From Lachnospiraceae bacterium (GTDB lineage: Bacteria > Bacillota > Clostridia > Lachnospirales > Lachnospiraceae), in contig JAQXTA010000005.1 of the NCBI GenBank assembly GCA_029219245.1, forward strand, positions 1 to 64,000: 64,000 nt of DNA. The letters are read 5' to 3'. Below are positions 1 to 59,747 of the stretch, piece by piece (within the stretch, counting starts at the first letter, position 1; each line of letters starts with the position of its first letter). A program made the position numbers and the translations under genes. The notes beneath the pieces are model-generated. The model searched no databases. It had not been told where the DNA came from and saw only the letters and a program-made list of their open reading frames with translations.

Positions 1-188
1 AATAAAACTGACAGTGACTGGTCATCCGGCAAAATCGAGTCGACTTTGGAAGAGATAAGTTTACGGGCTACGGTATGCGCCATTCATTGATGCCTTAACG
101 GATGACCGACAACATATATAAATGCGAGGTCGCCGCTATACAGCCCCGCCACTCACCTCCACGTGTTCTGTAGTGTGTCAGTCTTATT
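1..188 (+). ncRNA. Candidate structured RNA, class not recognised
   Basis: No convincing coding frame crosses this stretch, and it is richer in G+C than nearby intergenic DNA. Its two ends are complementary: bases 1-13 pair with 176-188, with one A/C mismatch in 13. Inside, GGTCATCCG (20-28) pairs perfectly with CGGATGACC (99-107). Weaker helices are GGTAT 72-76 with ATGCC 90-94 and GAGGT 126-130 with ACCTC 155-159. GGGCT (65-69), inside the 20-107 helix, could pair with AGCCC (142-146) outside it, as a pseudoknot. This multi-helix, end-closed layout is typical of large structured ncRNAs or riboswitches. I do not recognise the class; the raiA RNA family is one Firmicutes candidate to test. 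The RNA may extend left of the window, and the strand is inferred from the downstream gene. Confidence 0.55.
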
Positions 189-239
189 AAACAGATAATA
201 TCAGAAGGAAAAAAGATTAGAAAGCGGAAGTCAACTAAC

Positions 240-288
240 GGGTTTCATAACCCCATCGGTGCCTTTCGCAGAAAGGCGGATTATATAA
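240..288 (+). promoter_or_regulatory. Tandem hairpins, second one holding the GH43 ribosome binding site
   Basis: Two short hairpins lie just before the GH43 start. GGGTT (240-244) pairs with AACCC (249-253). GCCTTTC (261-267) pairs perfectly with GAAAGGC (271-277) over a 3-base loop. The likely Shine-Dalgarno, AAGGCGG (273-279), is largely in the 3' arm of the second hairpin and 9 bases before ATG 289, so the fold could mask it. No U-run follows, so this is not a terminator. Confidence 0.45.
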
Positions 289-1797
289 ATGAATCACAAT
301 ATTAATCCAATCATGAAAATGGACTATCCCGATCCGGATGTGATTCGGGTCGGGAATACTTATTATATGGCAAGCACAACTATGCACTTCTTTCCTGGAG
401 GTGCTTTTTTGCGTTCTTATGATTTGATAAACTGGGAAATGGTATCCTATGTGTATGAGAGACTGGACGGGACGAAGGGACAATGTCTGGAAGAAAATTA
501 TAATATTTACGGACAGGGGATGTGGGCACCTTGCCTACGGTATCATAATGGCATTTTTTACGTTTGTTTCGTAGCCAATGATACGCATAAGACATATCTA
601 TTTACAGCTAAGCAGGCGGAAGGACCTTGGGAAAAGCGGGAAATAGAAGGATTCTATCATGATTGTTCACTGTTATTTGATGAGGATGATAAGGTATATA
701 TAGTATATGGGAATACAGAGATTCATTTGACACAGTTGAAAGCAGATTTATCCGGACCGCTACCGGGAGGTCTTGATCGGATTATTATAAGCGACCGGGG
801 GAATTCTGTTCTCGGATATGAAGGAGCTCATATTTATAAAATCAATGAAAAATATTATGTTTTTCTGATCCATTCCCGAAGGGATAGATGGATGAGGACA
901 CAGGCATGTTTTATGGCAGATAGCCTGGATGGGGAATTTATAGGAAAAGATGTTCTTGAAAATACGAGAGGTTATTGCAATCAAGGAGTCGCACAGGGAG
1001 GTATTGTGGATACACCCTGGGGTAACTGGTATGCAATACTTTTTCAGGATCATGGCGCGGTAGGACGTATTCCTGTATTGATTCCGGTTCGGTTCGAGGA
1101 TGATTTTCCGGTATTCGGAGAAGCCGGACATATACCGGAGGAATTTGAGAAAAGAAGTACTCGACCGGATTATATCTATCAACCGTTATATGAAAGTGAT
1201 GATTTCAACGACTCTGATAATTTGGAAAAACCGGTATTGAAAAAAGCATGGCAGTTTAATCATACTCCGATAAATTCCCTTTGGGAGATTCGAAACCGAC
1301 AGTTTGTAATTCGTACCGGAAAACTGTGCCATAATGTAGAACAGGCGCAAAATACATTAACGCAAAGACTTCTTTTTCCAAGATGTAGAGTAGAGGTAAC
1401 TTTGGATATTCGGGATATCAGGGAGGGAGATTATGCAGGTTTGTGTGCCCTGCAAGGTTTATATGGAATGATTGCCATTACAAGGAAAGAAGGGAAAAAT
1501 TACCTTGTTATGGGAGAAAAAGCAGAGGAAAATGGAGATGGAATATATCAAGAATATCAGATTATGCCATGGAAAGAGCAGAGAATAAGACTATTTATGG
1601 AAGCTGATTTTTCCCAAATGAAAGATGAAGTGCAATTTGGATATATGGAACAGGGCAAAAGCATTCTGGCAGGACCCGTACATAAATTATTCTTTAAACT
1701 GGATCATTTTTGTGGATGCCGTGCTGGATTATTCGCCTTCTCCACAAAGCAGACAGGTGGAAAAGCAGCATTTTCGGAATTTACATATAAAGATTGA
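289..1797 (+). CDS. Glycoside hydrolase family 43 (beta-xylosidase/arabinofuranosidase-like)
   Basis: A 502-residue GH43-type enzyme, expected to remove xylose or arabinose from xylo-oligosaccharides. The N-terminal part has the five-bladed propeller signatures: YPDPDV with D15 as probable catalytic base, D125 in HDCS as probable pKa modulator, and E178 in GYEGAH as probable general acid. Residues from about 310 on form a second beta-rich domain like the C-terminal sandwich of GH43 xylosidases. There is no signal peptide, so it is probably cytoplasmic and acts on imported oligosaccharides. ATG 289 follows AAGGCGG at good spacing. It converges on the AraC gene with 8 bases between stops. Family and catalytic residues are read from motifs; exact substrate is inferred from the GH3 and pentose-transport neighbours. 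Confidence 0.85.
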   Translation: MNHNINPIMKMDYPDPDVIRVGNTYYMASTTMHFFPGGAFLRSYDLINWEMVSYVYERLDGTKGQCLEENYNIYGQGMWAPCLRYHNGIFYVCFVANDTHKTYLFTAKQAEGPWEKREIEGFYHDCSLLFDEDDKVYIVYGNTEIHLTQLKADLSGPLPGGLDRIIISDRGNSVLGYEGAHIYKINEKYYVFLIHSRRDRWMRTQACFMADSLDGEFIGKDVLENTRGYCNQGVAQGGIVDTPWGNWYAILFQDHGAVGRIPVLIPVRFEDDFPVFGEAGHIPEEFEKRSTRPDYIYQPLYESDDFNDSDNLEKPVLKKAWQFNHTPINSLWEIRNRQFVIRTGKLCHNVEQAQNTLTQRLLFPRCRVEVTLDIRDIREGDYAGLCALQGLYGMIAITRKEGKNYLVMGEKAEENGDGIYQEYQIMPWKEQRIRLFMEADFSQMKDEVQFGYMEQGKSILAGPVHKLFFKLDHFCGCRAGLFAFSTKQTGGKAAFSEFTYKD

Positions 1798-1805
1798 GGT
1801 GAAAG

Positions 1806-2669
1806 CTATTCGCTTTTATACATATTCCGAAATTCTGTAGGGGTACAGTTTTTTACAATCTTAAACATACGGATAAAGGATGAAAGACTGGAAAAACCGG
1901 AATTTAATGCAATATCGGTTACAGTGTATTTAGGATTGGCAAGGAGCTTTTCGGCAACAGCAATCCGCTTCTGATTCAGATATTTGTAGAAGGACACATT
2001 GGTAAACTGCTTAAAAAGTCTGGTAAAATGAAATTTACTGAAGCCTGCAAGACCTGCAACGAAATCCAGTGTTAAGTCTTCTGTACAGTGCGCACTGATA
2101 TAATCACATATGTACATAAACTTTGCGGTGTATTCCTGCTGTTTGTTGCTGGTAACATCAAATCGTATTGATTTTTCGGTATAATTTCTTCCAATTAAAA
2201 CAAACATCTCAAGGACCTTGCTATATATGGATATTTCTGCAAGAGTCGTATTTTTTAAATATTCATCATGAATTTCCAACAGGAGAGAGCGGACAGAGGA
2301 ATGAATGTCGGTATATTCTTCTGGTGTTATAACAATAACCGGCGAGAGGAGAGAGAGAGTACTTTCCATTTCCTTCATTTCACGGAGCATGGTAATATCT
2401 GCTTGAAAGATAATGCGTCTGCCGCCTTCTTTGGGAGCATAAAGAGAATGCAGGCAGCCGGGACAGATTATGATAATGTCATTTTCGCGCAAATGAATGG
2501 TATGGTCGCAGCATTCTATATGGTAATCGTTTTCTACAGGCATAATAATTTCCAATGGTGTATGCCAATGCGGTGGATAATTTTCGGTTTCATGATTATC
2601 GTAAAGTCTTAGATTTGTATTTTCTCTGAAATTGACAGTTTCATAAATTCCTTTTAAATTTTCAATCAT
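1806..2669 (-). CDS. AraC family transcriptional regulator
   Basis: 287 residues. The N-terminal half is a cupin-type ligand-binding domain (HWHTPLEI near residue 34, then alternating strands). The C-terminal ~100 residues carry two helix-turn-helix motifs of the AraC/XylS type (LAGFSKFHFTRLFKQ and DIALNSGFSSLSSFIRMFK). Such proteins usually activate neighbouring catabolic genes in response to a sugar. It is divergent from the GH3 gene and convergent with GH43, so both glycosidases are plausible targets; that is inference from position. The start ATG has a GGGGGA ribosome binding site about 8 bases upstream. Confidence 0.9.
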   Translation of the reverse strand: MIENLKGIYETVNFRENTNLRLYDNHETENYPPHWHTPLEIIMPVENDYHIECCDHTIHLRENDIIIICPGCLHSLYAPKEGGRRIIFQADITMLREMKEMESTLSLLSPVIVITPEEYTDIHSSVRSLLLEIHDEYLKNTTLAEISIYSKVLEMFVLIGRNYTEKSIRFDVTSNKQQEYTAKFMYICDYISAHCTEDLTLDFVAGLAGFSKFHFTRLFKQFTNVSFYKYLNQKRIAVAEKLLANPKYTVTDIALNSGFSSLSSFIRMFKIVKNCTPTEFRNMYKSE

Positions 2670-2931
2670 TACGTTGTCCCCCTATTGTGTTAGAAATTGC
2701 TTTATTCACAATACAAAAGAGTTAAAAAATGATAATTTTATTATAACAAAAGGAAACAAAATGACCAAGAGAAAAACATTAAAAAAAAGCAATAATTTAT
2801 ATTGATCAGGCAATTATTAAAATGAATAAAATTAAAGAGTATGTTATCTTACAATTATATAATAAGTTAAATGTGGATTTGTTAACGGAAGATTGGTAAA
2901 TAATAAGTATAAGAAAGGAAAGCTTTCTATT
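2670..2931. promoter_or_regulatory. Divergent AraC/GH3 intergenic region
   Basis: A 262-base A/T-rich region between divergent genes. On the plus strand TATAAT occurs near 2858 without a good -35, as expected for an activator-dependent promoter. On the minus strand TATAAT (2740-2745) lies about 16 bases from a weak TGGTCA. I saw no clear CRE box. A short hairpin, AGAAAG/CTTTCT, straddles the GH3 ribosome binding site (about 2911-2927). Confidence 0.4.
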
Positions 2932-5043
2932 ATGAAAAGAGATGAAGCAAGAAAAAGAGCCGAGGAGCTCGTTAGTAAAATGACTCTGGAGGAGCGTGCA
3001 AGCCAGTTGCGTTATGATGCACCGGCAATCAAGAGATTAGGGATTCCTGCCTATAACTGGTGGGGAGAAGGATTGCATGGAGTTGCAAGAGCCGGAACAG
3101 CAACGGTTTTTCCGCAAGCAATCGGTATGGCAGCAACCTTCGATGAAGAACTGGTAAAACAGATGAGTGACTGCATAGCAACGGAAGGCAGGGCCAAATA
3201 CAATGAATTTTCAGCACACAATGACAGGGATATCTACAAAGGTCTTACTTTCTGGTCGCCAAATGTGAATATCTTCCGCGACCCGAGGTGGGGACGCGGA
3301 CACGAAACCTATGGAGAGGATCCTTATCTGACTTCGCGCCTGGGAGTTGCTTACGTCAAAGGGTTACAAGGCAATGGGGAAGTCATGAAGGCAGCAGCGT
3401 GTGCGAAGCATTTTGCCGTACATTCCGGTCCGGAAGCTATACGGCACGAATTTGATGCACAGGCAACACCAAAGGATATGGAAGAAACCTATTTCCCCGC
3501 ATTTGAAGCTTTGGTAAAAGAAGCGGGTGTAGAAGCGGTTATGGGGGCCTACAACAGAGTGAATGGAGAACCTTGTTGTGGCAGCACTACTTTAATACGG
3601 GATACGTTACGTGAGAAATGGCATTTTGCAGGACATTTTGTATCAGACTGCTGGGCAATCAGGGATTTTCATGAAAATCATATGGTAACTTCTACGGCAG
3701 CAGAATCGGCAGCAATGGCGCTAAATGCAGGCTGTGATTTGAACTGCGGCGTAACATATCTTCATCTGTTAACCGCTTATCAACAGGGACTTGTAACGGA
3801 AGAAGCGATTACGGAAGCGGCTGTCCGCCTGTATACGACACGTTTCCTGTTAGGCTTGTTTGATGAAACAGAATACGATAGAATTCCATATGAAGTAGTT
3901 GAGTGTAAAGAGCATATTGCTCTGGCAGAAAAGGGAGCCAGAGAAAGCATTGTCCTTTTGAAAAATGACGGTATTCTTCCGTTAGATATTAAGAAAGTAA
4001 AAACAATCGGTGTCATTGGTCCGAATGCGAACAGCCGAAAGGCATTGATTGGAAATTATCATGGAACTTCTTCCGAATACATAACGGTATTAGAAGGAAT
4101 TCAAAAGTATGCGGAAGGAAAAGCAAGGGTACTGTTTTCGGAAGGAAGTGCTTTGTTTGAAGAAAAGACGGAGCCACTTGCACTGAAAGGAGACAGACTG
4201 GCAGAAGCAAAGATTGTAGCAGAGCACAGTGATGTGGTTATTCTTTGCCTCGGCCTGGATGAAACACTGGAAGGCGAAGAGGGAGATACCGGAAACAGCT
4301 ATGCTTCCGGTGATAAAGTGGATTTGTTACTTCCAAAATCACAGAGAGATTTGATGGAAACAATCGCGGCTGTAGGAAAACCCGTTGTATTCTGCCTTAT
4401 GACAGGAAGTGCGATAGATTTGCAATATCCGTCAGAGCGTTTTAATGCACTCCTGCAGCTTTGGTATCCTGGGGCAAGAGGCGGCAGAAGCGTAGCAGAG
4501 ATTCTGTTTGGAGAGGTTTCCCCATCAGGAAAGCTTCCGGTAACCTTTTATGAAGGTACGGATGTATTGCCGGCATTTACAGATTATTGTATGCAGGGAA
4601 GAACCTATCGGTATATGGAAGGAAAAGCACAGTATCCGTTTGGCTATGGACTGACTTATGGCAAAGTTGAAGTTACGAATGCCGTAATTGATAAAATAGT
4701 AGAAAAAGATGGATTTCCGGAAGCACAGGTAAAAGTTACCATAGAAAATAAAGGAACATATGATACCGGGGATGTGGTTCAGCTTTATATAAAGAATACG
4801 GATTCTCCCTATGCAATAAAGAATCCAGCGTTATGTGGCTTCCGGAGGGTTTATCTGAAAGCCGGAGAGAAAAAAGAATTAACGATGCAGATAGAAAGTA
4901 GGGCATTTACGGTTGTAAATGATGCCGGGGAACGTATTCGGGATGGAGGTCATTTTGAGATTTATGCCGGAACTTCCCAGCCGGATTTGCGAAGTGTGGA
5001 ATTAACAGGTATGCAGCCAATTAAAATGGAAGGAAACGTTTGA
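2932..5043 (+). CDS. Glycoside hydrolase family 3 beta-xylosidase-like enzyme
   Basis: 703 residues from ATG 2932, which has AAAGGAAAG upstream; the ORF track extends to a TTG at 2893 with no better signal. The order is GH3 N-terminal barrel, GH3 C-terminal alpha/beta sandwich and a fibronectin-III-like tail. The nucleophile is probably D239 in VSDCWA. Motifs such as NWWGEGLHG and RDPRWGRGHETYGEDPYL match the beta-xylosidase/arabinofuranosidase branch of GH3 more than the beta-glucosidases. No secretion signal, so a cytoplasmic enzyme releasing xylose is likely. The stop codon lies inside the terminator hairpin, so the gene is monocistronic. Confidence 0.9.
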   Translation: MKRDEARKRAEELVSKMTLEERASQLRYDAPAIKRLGIPAYNWWGEGLHGVARAGTATVFPQAIGMAATFDEELVKQMSDCIATEGRAKYNEFSAHNDRDIYKGLTFWSPNVNIFRDPRWGRGHETYGEDPYLTSRLGVAYVKGLQGNGEVMKAAACAKHFAVHSGPEAIRHEFDAQATPKDMEETYFPAFEALVKEAGVEAVMGAYNRVNGEPCCGSTTLIRDTLREKWHFAGHFVSDCWAIRDFHENHMVTSTAAESAAMALNAGCDLNCGVTYLHLLTAYQQGLVTEEAITEAAVRLYTTRFLLGLFDETEYDRIPYEVVECKEHIALAEKGARESIVLLKNDGILPLDIKKVKTIGVIGPNANSRKALIGNYHGTSSEYITVLEGIQKYAEGKARVLFSEGSALFEEKTEPLALKGDRLAEAKIVAEHSDVVILCLGLDETLEGEEGDTGNSYASGDKVDLLLPKSQRDLMETIAAVGKPVVFCLMTGSAIDLQYPSERFNALLQLWYPGARGGRSVAEILFGEVSPSGKLPVTFYEGTDVLPAFTDYCMQGRTYRYMEGKAQYPFGYGLTYGKVEVTNAVIDKIVEKDGFPEAQVKVTIENKGTYDTGDVVQLYIKNTDSPYAIKNPALCGFRRVYLKAGEKKELTMQIESRAFTVVNDAGERIRDGGHFEIYAGTSQPDLRSVELTGMQPIKMEGNV

Positions 5044-5061
5044 AAAGACGTTTCCTTTTTT
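5031..5061 (+). terminator. Rho-independent terminator after GH3
   Basis: AGGAAACGT pairs perfectly with ACGTTTCCT across an 8-base loop, followed by six T. The 5' arm contains the last codons of GH3. Confidence 0.9.
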
Positions 5062-5072
5062 CATGGAGAGTA

Positions 5073-5081
5073 TGATATACT
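5073..5081 (+). promoter_or_regulatory. Extended -10 promoter of the sugar-sensing operon
   Basis: TGATATACT is a TGn-extended -10 element about 37 bases before ATG 5118. No good -35 is present because the terminator occupies that place, which suits an extended -10 promoter. Confidence 0.45.
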
Positions 5082-5117
5082 TAATCGTGTCAATGATAAG
5101 ATTAAGGATAGAAGCAT

Positions 5118-6185
5118 ATGTGGAAAAAAAGGGCGGAAGAAAAAGCAGGAAAGAGAAACAACTATACATGGTATCTGGTTATGACAGTACTCATGATTGT
5201 TATCACAATGATAGCAGGTGTTGTGGTATTTAGTTTCTATATCAATCATTTTACCAAAGAACAGGATACAAGCCAGTATAATAAATACTATGTTATGATT
5301 GCAGGAGACGGGAATGCCTCTCTCTGGCAATCGGTTTATGAAGGCGCATATGAAGCGGCTCTTGAGGAGAACAGTTATGTGGATTTACTGGATGGTATTT
5401 TTGAAAAAAATTATACAAGAGAAGATTTGATGCGTATTGCTATTGCCTCTGAAGTAGATGGGATTATTGTAGCGGCAGATGAGAGTGATGGGATGACGAA
5501 TCTGATTAACGAGGCCGTAGAGGCAGGTATTCCGGTTGTTACTTTGTATGGCGATAATACACACAGTGCAAGATGCAGTTTTGTGGGAATCGGCAGCTAT
5601 GATTTGGGCAGGGAATACGGCAGACAGGTTTTGGAAATTGTAGAAAAAACAGATGTGGCAGATGAAACGGAAAAGCCAATCGAGGTTATGGTATTGGTAA
5701 ATGCCAACGCTATGGATTCCGGTCAGAACATTCTCTGCTCGGCAATTCAGGATACGTTGGAAAAAGAGAAACCGGAAAGTATGGAATTTGAACTGTCATT
5801 AGTTTCCATCAACGATGAAAATGCTTTTTCGGTCGAAGAATCCATAAGGGATATTTTCAAGGAAGAGGAACTTCCGGATATCATAATTTGCCTGAATGAA
5901 TTGAATACAACCTGTGTGTATCAGGCGGTGGTTGATTATAATAAAGTAGGACAGGTCAATATTCTCGGATATTATGATTCCGATACGATTATGAAAGCAA
6001 TTGACCGAAATGTTATTTATGCAACCATTGCCATTGATACGATGCAGATGGGAAGATTCTGCGTGGAGGCCTTGACCGAATATAATACTTATGGAAATAC
6101 GAGTCAGTATTTTACGGCAGATATTGCTTTGATTAACAAAGACAACGTAGCTTTTTACATGGAGGAAGAAGCCGATGAACCATAA
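5118..6185 (+). CDS. Membrane-anchored sugar-binding sensor protein (XylFII-like)
   Basis: 355 residues. A basic N-terminus and one strong transmembrane segment (about 16-40) precede a type I periplasmic-binding-protein fold of the LacI/ribose-binding kind (YYVMIAGDG, then GIIVAADESDG and the VVTLYGDN hinge region). There is no lipobox, so it is an uncleaved membrane anchor. In Clostridium beijerinckii an anchored xylose-binding protein, XylFII, forms a complex with the LytS kinase and signals to YesN. Gene order and overlap here match: the stop overlaps the kinase start by 11 bases. Probable role: extracellular pentose sensing rather than transport. The exact ligand is inferred. Confidence 0.75.
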   Translation: MWKKRAEEKAGKRNNYTWYLVMTVLMIVITMIAGVVVFSFYINHFTKEQDTSQYNKYYVMIAGDGNASLWQSVYEGAYEAALEENSYVDLLDGIFEKNYTREDLMRIAIASEVDGIIVAADESDGMTNLINEAVEAGIPVVTLYGDNTHSARCSFVGIGSYDLGREYGRQVLEIVEKTDVADETEKPIEVMVLVNANAMDSGQNILCSAIQDTLEKEKPESMEFELSLVSINDENAFSVEESIRDIFKEEELPDIIICLNELNTTCVYQAVVDYNKVGQVNILGYYDSDTIMKAIDRNVIYATIAIDTMQMGRFCVEALTEYNTYGNTSQYFTADIALINKDNVAFYMEEEADEP

Positions 6186-7668
6186 ATTACGCAGCCTGTC
6201 GTTGCAGGGAAAGATCAGCAGCCTCTATATTCTGACAAATTTACTTGTTTTTGTTGTAAATATTCTTTTGCTTCTCGGAATAAACCGTATGTCAAATGAA
6301 ATGGAAATGGTTTATCGGGATAATCTGCATTTAAATGAGCTAGCACAGGCATTGGATAATGTGCAGGACAGTATGACGGATTATCTGAACGCGAAAACCA
6401 GTGATTCCCTGGAGGAGTATTACAGGAATGAACAGGAATATTTGGATCTGGTATATGATTTAAAGGATGAGGTTACCGGTAGTTCTTTTGATCGTATGAA
6501 AAGAAATATCAAGCATATGTCAGAACAGTATCTGGAGATTGCTGACCAGACGATTGAAGCGAAGCGCGGCCGGAATGTCGAAAAGTACCGTATCCGCTAT
6601 GAAAATGCAACACAGCTTTATGACTACATAAATACTTATGTTTACAGCCTGAATAATGAACAGTTTAAGAGCAATTCCGAAAATTATAATGAACTGGCAC
6701 AAGCATTCCGGAAGTTTGAATTTCTTGGAATGGGCGTAATGTGTGTTGTTATTATTTTTAACGTATGTATTATTATTAAAATGGTGGGAGCCTTAATCAG
6801 TCCTCTTAAAACATTATCCAAAAGTGCAGATGAGGTGGCGAACGGAAATCTGGATATCGAAGTGCTCGAGGTTCAGTCCGAAGATGAAATCGGTGTTGTA
6901 ACAAGTGCTTTTAATCAGATGGTAATCAGTATCAGGCAGTATATTGAACGAATCCGGCATAGTATGGAAGTAGAACGTGCCATGAAGGAAAAAGAACTGA
7001 TGATGGAGGCCCATTTAAAGGATGCTAAATTAAAGTATCTGCAGGCACAGATAAATCCCCATTTTTTATTTAATACCTTAAATGCCGGAGCACAGCTTGC
7101 CATGCTGGAGGGGGCAGACAGAACCTACAAATATGTACAGAACATGGCAGAATTCTTCCGGTATAATGTAAAAAAAGGGGATGAAATTGTCAGCATCCGG
7201 GAAGAAATTGAACTGGTAGATAACTATATCTATATTTTGAATGTCAGATTTTCCGGGGATATCCATTATGAGAAGAAAATAGATAAGTCTTTGTTGCAGG
7301 TGCAGATGCCAAGCATGATTTTACAGCCGATTGTGGAAAACTGTGTAAATCATGGTATCCGGGAAATGGCAGGGGAAGGCAGAATTTATCTATCGGTATA
7401 TCGCGTGGATGATATGGCTTGTATCAGCATCCGGGACAACGGTGTGGGTATGAGTCAGGAAACAATCGACAAAGTACTGAGTGGAACATACCGGGAAGAA
7501 GAGCTGGCAGCAGGTTCGAACGGTGTTGGTATGGATAATGTAATCGGAAGATTGAAGCTTTTTACGGAAAGTGAAGATGTCATGTCGATTGTGAGTGAAG
7601 GAAAAGATAAGGGAACCGAGGTTATTATTTATATACAAATGAAAGAGCGGGAGGAAGACGATGTATAA
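6175..7668 (+). CDS. LytS/YesM-type sensor histidine kinase
   Basis: 497 residues: transmembrane helix (about 15-37), extracellular helical region rich in acidic residues, second transmembrane helix (about 182-203), HAMP domain (ISPLKTLSKSADEV), then the His_kinase family domain with phosphoacceptor H296 in NPHFLFNTLN and an HATPase domain (ENCVNHGI, DNGVGM, NGVGMDN). This is the kinase class paired with YesN-type regulators. It overlaps the upstream sensor gene by 11 bases and the downstream regulator by 8, so the three proteins are translationally coupled. The small extracellular domain suits docking with the binding-protein sensor. Confidence 0.92.
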   Translation: MNHKLRSLSLQGKISSLYILTNLLVFVVNILLLLGINRMSNEMEMVYRDNLHLNELAQALDNVQDSMTDYLNAKTSDSLEEYYRNEQEYLDLVYDLKDEVTGSSFDRMKRNIKHMSEQYLEIADQTIEAKRGRNVEKYRIRYENATQLYDYINTYVYSLNNEQFKSNSENYNELAQAFRKFEFLGMGVMCVVIIFNVCIIIKMVGALISPLKTLSKSADEVANGNLDIEVLEVQSEDEIGVVTSAFNQMVISIRQYIERIRHSMEVERAMKEKELMMEAHLKDAKLKYLQAQINPHFLFNTLNAGAQLAMLEGADRTYKYVQNMAEFFRYNVKKGDEIVSIREEIELVDNYIYILNVRFSGDIHYEKKIDKSLLQVQMPSMILQPIVENCVNHGIREMAGEGRIYLSVYRVDDMACISIRDNGVGMSQETIDKVLSGTYREEELAAGSNGVGMDNVIGRLKLFTESEDVMSIVSEGKDKGTEVIIYIQMKEREEDDV

Positions 7669-9250
7669 AATCATGCTTGCAGATGATGAGGGTATCGTAA
7701 TCGATTCCCTGAAATTCATCATTGAAAAAGAGTTTGGGGATGAATGTATCGTAGAATATGCCAAAACCGGAAGAAGCGTTATTGAACTGGCAGAGAAATT
7801 CCGGCCGGATATTGCGGTTATGGATATTCAGATGCCCGGTATTAACGGGATAGAGGCGATGAAGGAGATACGTCAGAGCAACAGAAATGTCCAGTTTATC
7901 GTGATGTCGGCATATGATAAATTTGATTATGCAAAGGAGGCAATTAAACTGGGTGTTCTGGAATATATCACCAAACCGATGGAGCGCACTAAAATTGTTT
8001 CCGTTCTGAAAAAGGGTATGGAAATTGTTGACAGGGAGCGGGAAAAGAGGAGTAATGACCTTTTAGTAAAGGAAAAGCTGGAAACGGTTGTTCCGATTAT
8101 TGAAAGTGGTCTGATTTATAATATTTTATTACAAGAGCATTTTACAGAAGATATTGATAATTATAAAACCATTCTTGGGTTTGATAAAAGTCTGGCATAT
8201 ATGATTGCCGTAGTGTGTGGCGATGAACAGGATGGTAATCATATGACCAATGCAGTTGGCAGCAGTGTGAAGATGCAGCAGCATTATCAGGAAGTAAGGG
8301 AATGTCTGAAGGAGTATTTTGACTGTATTGTCGGAACTGTTATGGCAAATAAGCTGGCAGTTCTTGTTCCTTATGAGAAAGAACATATGGATTATAATGA
8401 GAGAATCGATTTGATCGAGAAAGCACGTGAGCTTGTAAGGCATATGCGTAAAAAGATGGGAATCAGCTTTCGCATTGGTATCGGCAGGGTCGGTAAGCTT
8501 GAGTCAATGGCAGAATCTTATAATGAAGCCTTGAATGCGCTTGTTATTACGACGGGAAGCGTAGCACATGCGGATGACTTACCAATTGGATGTGATTATG
8601 CGGGAGATTATCCGATTGATTTGGAGAAGCGCTTGTTTGAGGAAGTGGAGAAAGGAGAAGTTAACAATGCGCTCGCCACAGCAAGAAGCTTTTATGACTG
8701 GATGGTAGAAAATAATCCGGACAGTCTGATGGAAATCCGGATAAAAGTTCTGGAGTTTGCACTCTGGGTAGAACATATTGCTTATGAGAAAGGCGGCATG
8801 ACTTACCAGTTTAACTCCAGACAGGATTATCTGCCGGCAATTATGGGAACTTCTGATCTGGATGAGCTTCGGAAATGGTTTCTGGATAAGGTTATGGCGG
8901 CATGTCAGAATATTCTCGGTAAACGGGAGGAAAAATCAAACAGTATTATTGAGATGGCAAAAGAGTATATCCGCAATAACTTTAATAAGGATATTTCGTT
9001 GGATGATGTATCCCGGGCGGTCAATATCAGTCCTTACTATTTCAGTAAGATATTTAAGGAAGGAACCGGAGAGGGATTTATTGAATATCTGACAAATATC
9101 CGCATGGAAAAAGCCAAAGAACTGCTTAATACGACAGAATATTCCATGAAGGAAATCTGCACCATGTGCGGCTATTCCGATCCAAATTATTTCAGCCGCA
9201 CGTTTAAGAAAAATGTCGGGGTTACACCGACAGAATACAAAAATGTTTAG
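7661..9250 (+). CDS. YesN-type response regulator, REC plus AraC-type HTH
   Basis: 529 residues. The REC domain occupies about 1-120, with phosphoacceptor D55 in AVMDIQMPG and the conserved TKP lysine. A long middle region (about 150-400) of the YesN type follows. The AraC DNA-binding domain is in the last ~100 residues (VSRAVNISPYYFSKIFKE, ICTMCGYSDPNYFSRTFKK). Partner of the preceding kinase by overlap and family. Likely targets are its own operon and the downstream transporter promoter, as in the xylFII-lytS-yesN model; the targets are inferred. Confidence 0.92.
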   Translation: MYKIMLADDEGIVIDSLKFIIEKEFGDECIVEYAKTGRSVIELAEKFRPDIAVMDIQMPGINGIEAMKEIRQSNRNVQFIVMSAYDKFDYAKEAIKLGVLEYITKPMERTKIVSVLKKGMEIVDREREKRSNDLLVKEKLETVVPIIESGLIYNILLQEHFTEDIDNYKTILGFDKSLAYMIAVVCGDEQDGNHMTNAVGSSVKMQQHYQEVRECLKEYFDCIVGTVMANKLAVLVPYEKEHMDYNERIDLIEKARELVRHMRKKMGISFRIGIGRVGKLESMAESYNEALNALVITTGSVAHADDLPIGCDYAGDYPIDLEKRLFEEVEKGEVNNALATARSFYDWMVENNPDSLMEIRIKVLEFALWVEHIAYEKGGMTYQFNSRQDYLPAIMGTSDLDELRKWFLDKVMAACQNILGKREEKSNSIIEMAKEYIRNNFNKDISLDDVSRAVNISPYYFSKIFKEGTGEGFIEYLTNIRMEKAKELLNTTEYSMKEICTMCGYSDPNYFSRTFKKNVGVTPTEYKNV

Positions 9251-52709: not shown

Positions 52710-52754
52710 CAAACTATACAGTGTCCGAAGGATACGGAATATAACAGGATATAG

Positions 52755-52975
52755 ACGAAGAAGAGGATTAGTACAGATAGGGAACGTTGCAGAGAGAAGA
52801 CAGATGGGTGTGAAGTCTTTACGGAAGCTATTTGGAACCTGCCTTGGAGTTCTGTATGAAAATACAGCGTAACGCCGGCGTTAACGGTAAGAGAAGAGAG
52901 CATAGATATGCTAATCAGGGTGGTACCGCCGAGATTTCGGTCCCTTTTGGGATGGAAGCTTCGGTGGTTTTTATT
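52755..52975 (+). promoter_or_regulatory. T-box riboswitch, proline specifier
   Basis: Stem I carries the AGTA motif near 52771. The specifier region GGAACCTGCCTTGGAG places codon CCT (Pro) at 52838-52840. The T-box AGGGTGGTACCGCC is at 52917-52930; its TGGT can pair with the ACCA end of tRNA-Pro. The competing terminator joins ACCGCCGA with TTCGGTGGT, then T residues (52925-52973). Uncharged tRNA-Pro would stabilise the antiterminator and allow proS transcription. Confidence 0.93.
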
Positions 52976-59580: not shown

Positions 59581-59653
<73 letters not shown>

Positions 59654-59676
59654 CTATAACAAAATATATTATTTAT

Positions 59677-59747
59677 GCGGGTGTAGTTCAATGGTAGAAC
59701 ACCAGCCTTCCAAGCTGGATACGTGGGTTCGATTCCCATCACCCGCT
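59677..59747 (+). tRNA. tRNA-Gly (TCC)
   Basis: Acceptor GCGGGTG/CACCCGC, D-arm GTTCAATGGTAGAAC, anticodon loop CTTCCAA with TCC, T-loop GGTTCGATTCC, discriminator T; 71 bases as usual for Gly. CCA is not encoded. A T-rich stretch follows. It lies 23 bases after tRNA-Phe and is cotranscribed with it. Confidence 0.98.

Follow-up and report, generated by a model that had tools for sequence, protein, structure and literature searches.

The window analysed here, 64,000 nt of DNA from a Lachnospiraceae bacterium, starts at base 1 of contig C5 (134,131 bp). The gene at 289-1797 encodes a GH43 glycosidase, and is part of an apparent xylan-type sugar locus spanning 289-9250, in which inspection of the translations by eye reveals, besides GH43, an AraC-type regulator, a probable GH3 glycosidase, a periplasmic sugar-binding-like protein, a histidine kinase and an AraC-type response regulator. 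The GH43 gene is preceded by an IS110-type insertion sequence lying on the minus strand, whose left end occupies 1-284 and whose bridge RNA is encoded by 1-188, an assignment that we regard as close to certain. The features are listed below.

1-284, minus strand: left end (LE) of an IS110-type insertion sequence, running leftwards off the contig into the transposase, with its outer boundary adjoining the T (minus strand) at 285.
1-188, minus strand: bridge RNA (bRNA/seekRNA), starting near 188 and ending at, or past, the edge of the contig, identified by covariation, G-U/A-C counts and fold z.
176-188, minus strand: 5' arm of the outer (closing) helix, paired with 1-13; pairing and two-sided changes.
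1-13, minus strand: 3' arm of the outer (closing) helix; pairing and two-sided changes.
99-107, minus strand: 5' arm of the donor-loop stem, paired with 20-28; pairing and compensatory changes.
20-28, minus strand: 3' arm of the donor-loop stem; pairing and compensatory changes.
152-162, minus strand: probable right target guide GUGGAGGUGAG, able to pair with a Shine-Dalgarno sequence in its antisense form; near-constant, and complementary to a CCTCC-like motif.
118-124, minus strand: left target guide CAU-UUA-U, in which 119-121 (UUA) is the variable triplet; the host flank at 285-291, CAT-TTA-T, has the same sequence.
57-62, minus strand: left donor guide AAACUU; the tip of the right end of the element, ...CAAACTT, has the same sequence.
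195-203, minus strand: putative extended -10 promoter TGATATTAT of the bRNA, TGnTATnnT-like and kept in most rows of the alignment; start expected near 188.
213-284, minus strand: conserved tip of the LE, in which two small hairpins lie (GGGTTTCATAACCC; GCCTTTCGCAGAAAGGC on the plus strand), the right-donor half of the crossover site; conservation.
285-291, minus strand: host target half CAT-TTA-T, which reads the GH43 start codon (ATG at 289-291) in antisense together with the spacer, and is matched by the guide.
289-1797, plus strand: GH43 glycosidase with a GH43_C2 domain, the host gene that flanks the insertion; its GH43 domain begins at residue 6.

Left ends 84-92% identical to that of the window, each with an adjoining IS110 transposase, are found in relatives, and LE-like sequences occur in scattered genomes of the genus, the family and the order. 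A scan of GTDB genomes identified 79 further loci, and phage records yielded a single 43-nt partial match. In the homologues, the gene located directly downstream of the bRNA on the minus strand encodes an IS110 transposase, which carries the Pfam domains DEDD_Tnp_IS110 (PF01548) and Transposase_20 (PF02371), and is recognized by the NCBIfam model NF033542, 'IS110 family RNA-guided transposase', with 231-242 bits (cut-off 140). The ends of the element are defined by copies diverging sharply at identical points, seven in Acididesulfobacillus acetoxydans and six in Enterococcus avium, all organized as host-CATNNN-T-ATAAATCCGCC...bRNA...transposase...GTTTCAAACTT-host. A long non-coding end, made of the LE (~285 nt) and ~30 nt more, precedes tnp, and the right end is shorter; judged by this layout, the element belongs to the IS110, and not to the IS1111, group. 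Upstream of GH43 orthologues in the genus the sequence is unrelated, and offers no empty site for the insertion in the window; for this reason a relative of E. avium was used, in which the empty site CATAATTATCACCTCC is found and the joined flanks are 99% identical. When the empty site is compared with the occupied one, only a T is present at both junctions, with no long target duplication, and the T at 285 (minus strand) is the base common to target and donor. The last ~46 nt of the LE are 89-100% identical also in elements in which the other part of the LE no longer matches. The interval 212-284, which precedes different genes, was considered as a host repeat or leader serving as insertion target; genomes hosting multiple copies, and the empty site, identify it as the tip of the element.

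Because the window begins exactly at the contig end, what is truncated is the element, and not the RNA alone. The transposase of the window copy lies beyond the contig edge, with its start and the right end outside the window. The end of another contig from this genome, C28 (16,911 bp), cuts through an IS110 transposase, of which C28 encodes the C-terminal part (residues 212-439 of the query). There, the right end TTGTTTCAAACTT adjoins the transposase, and is followed by an esterase-like gene ending TAAGGACGAAG. Two contig ends, C28:16191-16911 (L039, L169) and position 1 of the window, are located inside the same kind of IS110 element, and their orientation fits one element of which ~0.66 kb are missing between the contigs. 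We infer from the contig ends that C28 carries the other half of the element in the window. The IS probably broke the assembly between the esterase-like gene and the GH43 gene, and the insertion probably lies within an esterase-GH43 operon.

A structured, non-coding RNA in 1-188 had been proposed in the first-pass annotation, and this notion holds. No ORF of at least 60 aa crosses the region on either strand, open ends included. The arms 1-13 and 176-188 pair at 12 of 13 positions, and the inner helix 20-28/99-107 at 9 of 9, as had been described. In an alignment of 60 distinct homologues the consensus structure includes 38 pairs, 16 of which exhibit two-sided changes; 97.2% of the cells in the whole structure are paired, a level reached by none of 500 shuffles, two-sided cells are 127 (35.3 in shuffles), and pairing drops to 29-46% when the structure is slid out of register. 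Compensatory changes involve all six scored pairs of the outer helix (helix 1), and six of the nine pairs of the inner one (helix 4).

The strand, in turn, must be reversed from plus to minus. The fold z of 1-188 relative to its own shuffles is -2.69 on the minus strand and -0.06, thus no better than shuffles, on the plus strand, and the sole mismatch of the terminal helix on the plus strand, A6/C183, turns into a G-U wobble when the minus strand is read. The RNA is of minus sense because, in the minus-strand reading of the 60 homologues, consensus pairs include 256 G-U and 30 A-C combinations, and the counts would swap on the other strand. The GGGCT/AGCCC pseudoknot, also proposed earlier, has been set aside: GGGGCU on the RNA strand is part of the hairpin adjoining the target guide, and AGCCC resides in the donor stem-loop; the segments are nearly invariant, covariation speaks neither for nor against their pairing, and the pseudoknot is not needed. 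The extended -10 motif at 203-195, ahead of the 5' arm of the closing helix (188), is plausibly the promoter of the bRNA. The RNA had been tentatively referred to raiA RNA, another known large Firmicutes ncRNA, or a new class. With raiA and similar RNAs it has in common only size and structured nature, and genomic context and strand differ. The search of 1-188 against Rfam (Rfam 15) gave no match at the gathering threshold, which the region reaches neither with the covariance model of raiA nor with that of any other Rfam family, and none at E<=10. A T-box leader (117.6 bits) and two tRNA genes, located within 52749-52948 and 59581-59747, are the only Rfam hits in the window.

In nearly every homologous RNA the sequence Y-A-U-NNN-U-A-U is found between the hairpin and the donor stem. 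The correspondence of this guide with the genome was assessed in the 67 elements in which both the RNA and the left junction are readable. The NNN triplet is identical to the three host bases lying between the element and CAT in 53 of them, the expected number being 4.9. When guide and host triplets were shuffled, 14 matches were obtained at most, and 53 was reached in 0 of 20,000 trials. By counting each bRNA once, 42 of 53 triplets match (3.4 expected). The match is restricted to one register, as others give 0-7, and the copy in the window, with guide UUA and host TTA, conforms to it. The guide in the target loop covaries with the genomic target, as is expected of a bridge RNA or seekRNA, and the family has been naturally reprogrammed to at least 25 triplets. 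The rule extends to copies with only 47-50% identity at the protein level, from E. faecalis, E. raffinosus and L. lactis; in the E. raffinosus copy an annotated SDR gene starts at the junction. Triplets mismatch in 14 of the 67 elements. With wobble allowed, 59 of the 67 pair, and eight mismatches are not rescued. Guide and host triplet differ beyond wobble, for example, in L006, L049, L109, L120, L156/L159 and L161; such cases reflect either a tolerated mismatch or drift of the guide after insertion. The E. faecalis elements L216 and L217 reside on plasmids, and are related IS110 elements with 50% protein identity. L217 is apparently inserted before a GTG start (CAC, not CAT), and the guide rule is unchanged.

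The donor side is read in the same manner. AAACUU corresponds to the right-end tip in nearly all elements, and changes are compensated both in L047 (ACACUU/ACACTT) and in the E. faecalis copies at 50% protein identity (AAGCUU/AAGCTT). Judged from these correspondences, the guide in the donor loop matches the end of the element itself, as in a bridge RNA, for the left donor guide.

The ATG flanking the element opens a frame of at least 50 codons in 55 of 69 cases, against a background of 29%, and 14 of 69 are without a long frame. CTCC or CCTC occurs within 14 nt of the right junction in 61 of 73 elements. Because of the ATG frames and of the CTCC/CCTC enrichment, the sites are read as Shine-Dalgarno/spacer/ATG units entered antisense. 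The junctions indicate that the element inserts antisense between the ribosome-binding site and the start codon, in the window before the GH43 gene. The 5' side of the target loop carries a segment, GGAGGUGAG, complementary to the Shine-Dalgarno half and nearly invariant in all homologues, which may be a second target guide, directed to the other strand. On balance we favour the view that this is a bridge RNA lineage of Firmicutes programmed against the translation-initiation signal, in which a constant guide would read the Shine-Dalgarno, and a part-constant guide NNN and the start codon, with flexible spacing and only NNN drifting.

Alternatively, the RNA might guide by CAU-NNN-U alone, and the neighbouring Shine-Dalgarno reflect selection against gene-breaking insertions, rather than recognition by RNA. 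The near-invariance of GGAGGUGAG fits this hypothesis, and so does the distance of the Shine-Dalgarno from the crossover, which varies from 0 to 7 nt, like the native spacing. Yet, at sites elsewhere in the host flanks which match the guide of the element, CTCC or CCTC is nearby in only 5 of 63 cases, against 61 of 73 occupied sites, and the CCTCC-like motif is found at 13 of 13 copies in two genomes (A. acetoxydans, E. avium). In a single case, L094, both sides are changed, and GGAAAU faces the host sequence ATTTCC. Guiding by CAU-NNN-U alone is held to be the less likely explanation. Much less credit is given to the idea that, on insertion, the triplet of the target is copied into the guide, rather than being selected by it. 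The triplet is hypervariable within an otherwise conserved RNA, and matches most sites, as copying would predict, but genomes with multiple copies keep one guide, which is unchanged at mismatched sites (an A. acetoxydans copy at CATCTG still has GUG), and deviations lean to those compatible with G-U pairing, with 8 T/C changes, in which the RNA-DNA wobble is kept, and 2 of the reverse C/T type, as predicted by RNA pairing; copying has been ruled out by the multi-copy genomes. Least credible of all, and already refuted by strand and synteny, is a stand-alone structured ncRNA, raiA-like or of a new class, or a 5' leader of the GH43 gene, on the plus strand, for though the helices are real and lie directly upstream of the GH43 start codon, the RNA reads from the opposite strand, as fold and G-U/A-C asymmetry denote, Rfam has no match, the genes downstream of the homologues differ (GH43, DUF3800-like, DUF4317-like, UvrA-like, LarC-like, by eye), and an IS110 transposase flanks their other side.

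In the model favoured here, in which the RNA is programmed against initiation signals, the element would be excised as a circle, and the extended -10 promoter in the LE would then drive synthesis of the RNA, an order of events suggested by analogy with IS621 and ISEc21. The bRNA would bind the DEDD recombinase. The loop nearer to the 5' end would display the two target guides, near-constant GGAGGUGAG for the Shine-Dalgarno and CAU-NNN-U for the antisense of NNN plus start codon, and the loop nearer to the 3' end AAACUU, matching the right end of the element. By joining donor and target at the shared T, the recombinase would place the element antisense between ribosome-binding site and start codon. 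Identity of the element, strand and structure of the RNA, match of the variable guide, junctions and empty site have all been computed; transcription, binding to the recombinase and the role of the Shine-Dalgarno guide are plausible extensions.

The bridge RNA of IS621 is a ~180-nt ncRNA whose coding region, in the left end, precedes the gene of a DEDD IS110 recombinase (Durrant 2024, PMC11208160; structure in PMC11208158). In both systems the target loop is variable and the donor loop more conserved, the guides covary with target and donor, and the left end has a promoter, putative here. They differ in sequence and structure, in the order of the target half-guides, which is reversed here (the putative bottom-strand match comes first, then the top-strand match), in the shared base, which is T here and a CT core in IS621, and in the target, which is here a start-codon region. 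Unlike in IS621, moreover, the distance of the putative Shine-Dalgarno-side guide from the crossover floats. The seekRNA of ISEc21 (PMC11187229) belongs to an element of IS110 type, with a non-coding region upstream of tnp and the same guide order, the top-strand match lying 3' of the bottom-strand one. ISEc21, however, has a fixed site inside IS3-family transposase genes, whereas here the triplet varies and the start-codon part is fixed. For ISMch6, a natural change of target through a few guide bases is known. The RNA represents a bRNA family that is new, though of a known type; its target class can be recognised, and Rfam has no match for it. This IS lineage may already have been described outside the open PMC literature.

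A similar target is that of IS900 from Mycobacterium avium subsp. paratuberculosis, an IS110-family element inserting at translation-initiation signals (Doran 1997, as cited in PMC8141618) at the motif CATGNNNNNNTCTCCTT. Both targets consist of CAT, spacer and Shine-Dalgarno complement. The host phylum is different, and the likeness is one of target site; no guide RNA for IS900 is reported in the open PMC literature searched. If the lineage is indeed programmed against translation-initiation signals, this would also explain the long-known choice of sites by IS900, for which a directly testable RNA explanation is now on offer; through the drift of NNN every lineage would come to address different start codons, and host coding sequences would be spared. 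The structured RNA, hitherto unnamed, is a guide RNA whose guide can be read and matched to a natural target. The dozens of natural guide/target pairs, and the statistics of mismatch and wobble, are useful for the engineering of bridge recombinases.

The segment 213-284 carries a Shine-Dalgarno-like sequence, AAAGGCGG, ahead of the host start codon. Together with the hairpins at the tip of the LE, it may either provide the host gene with a ribosome-binding site or mask one.
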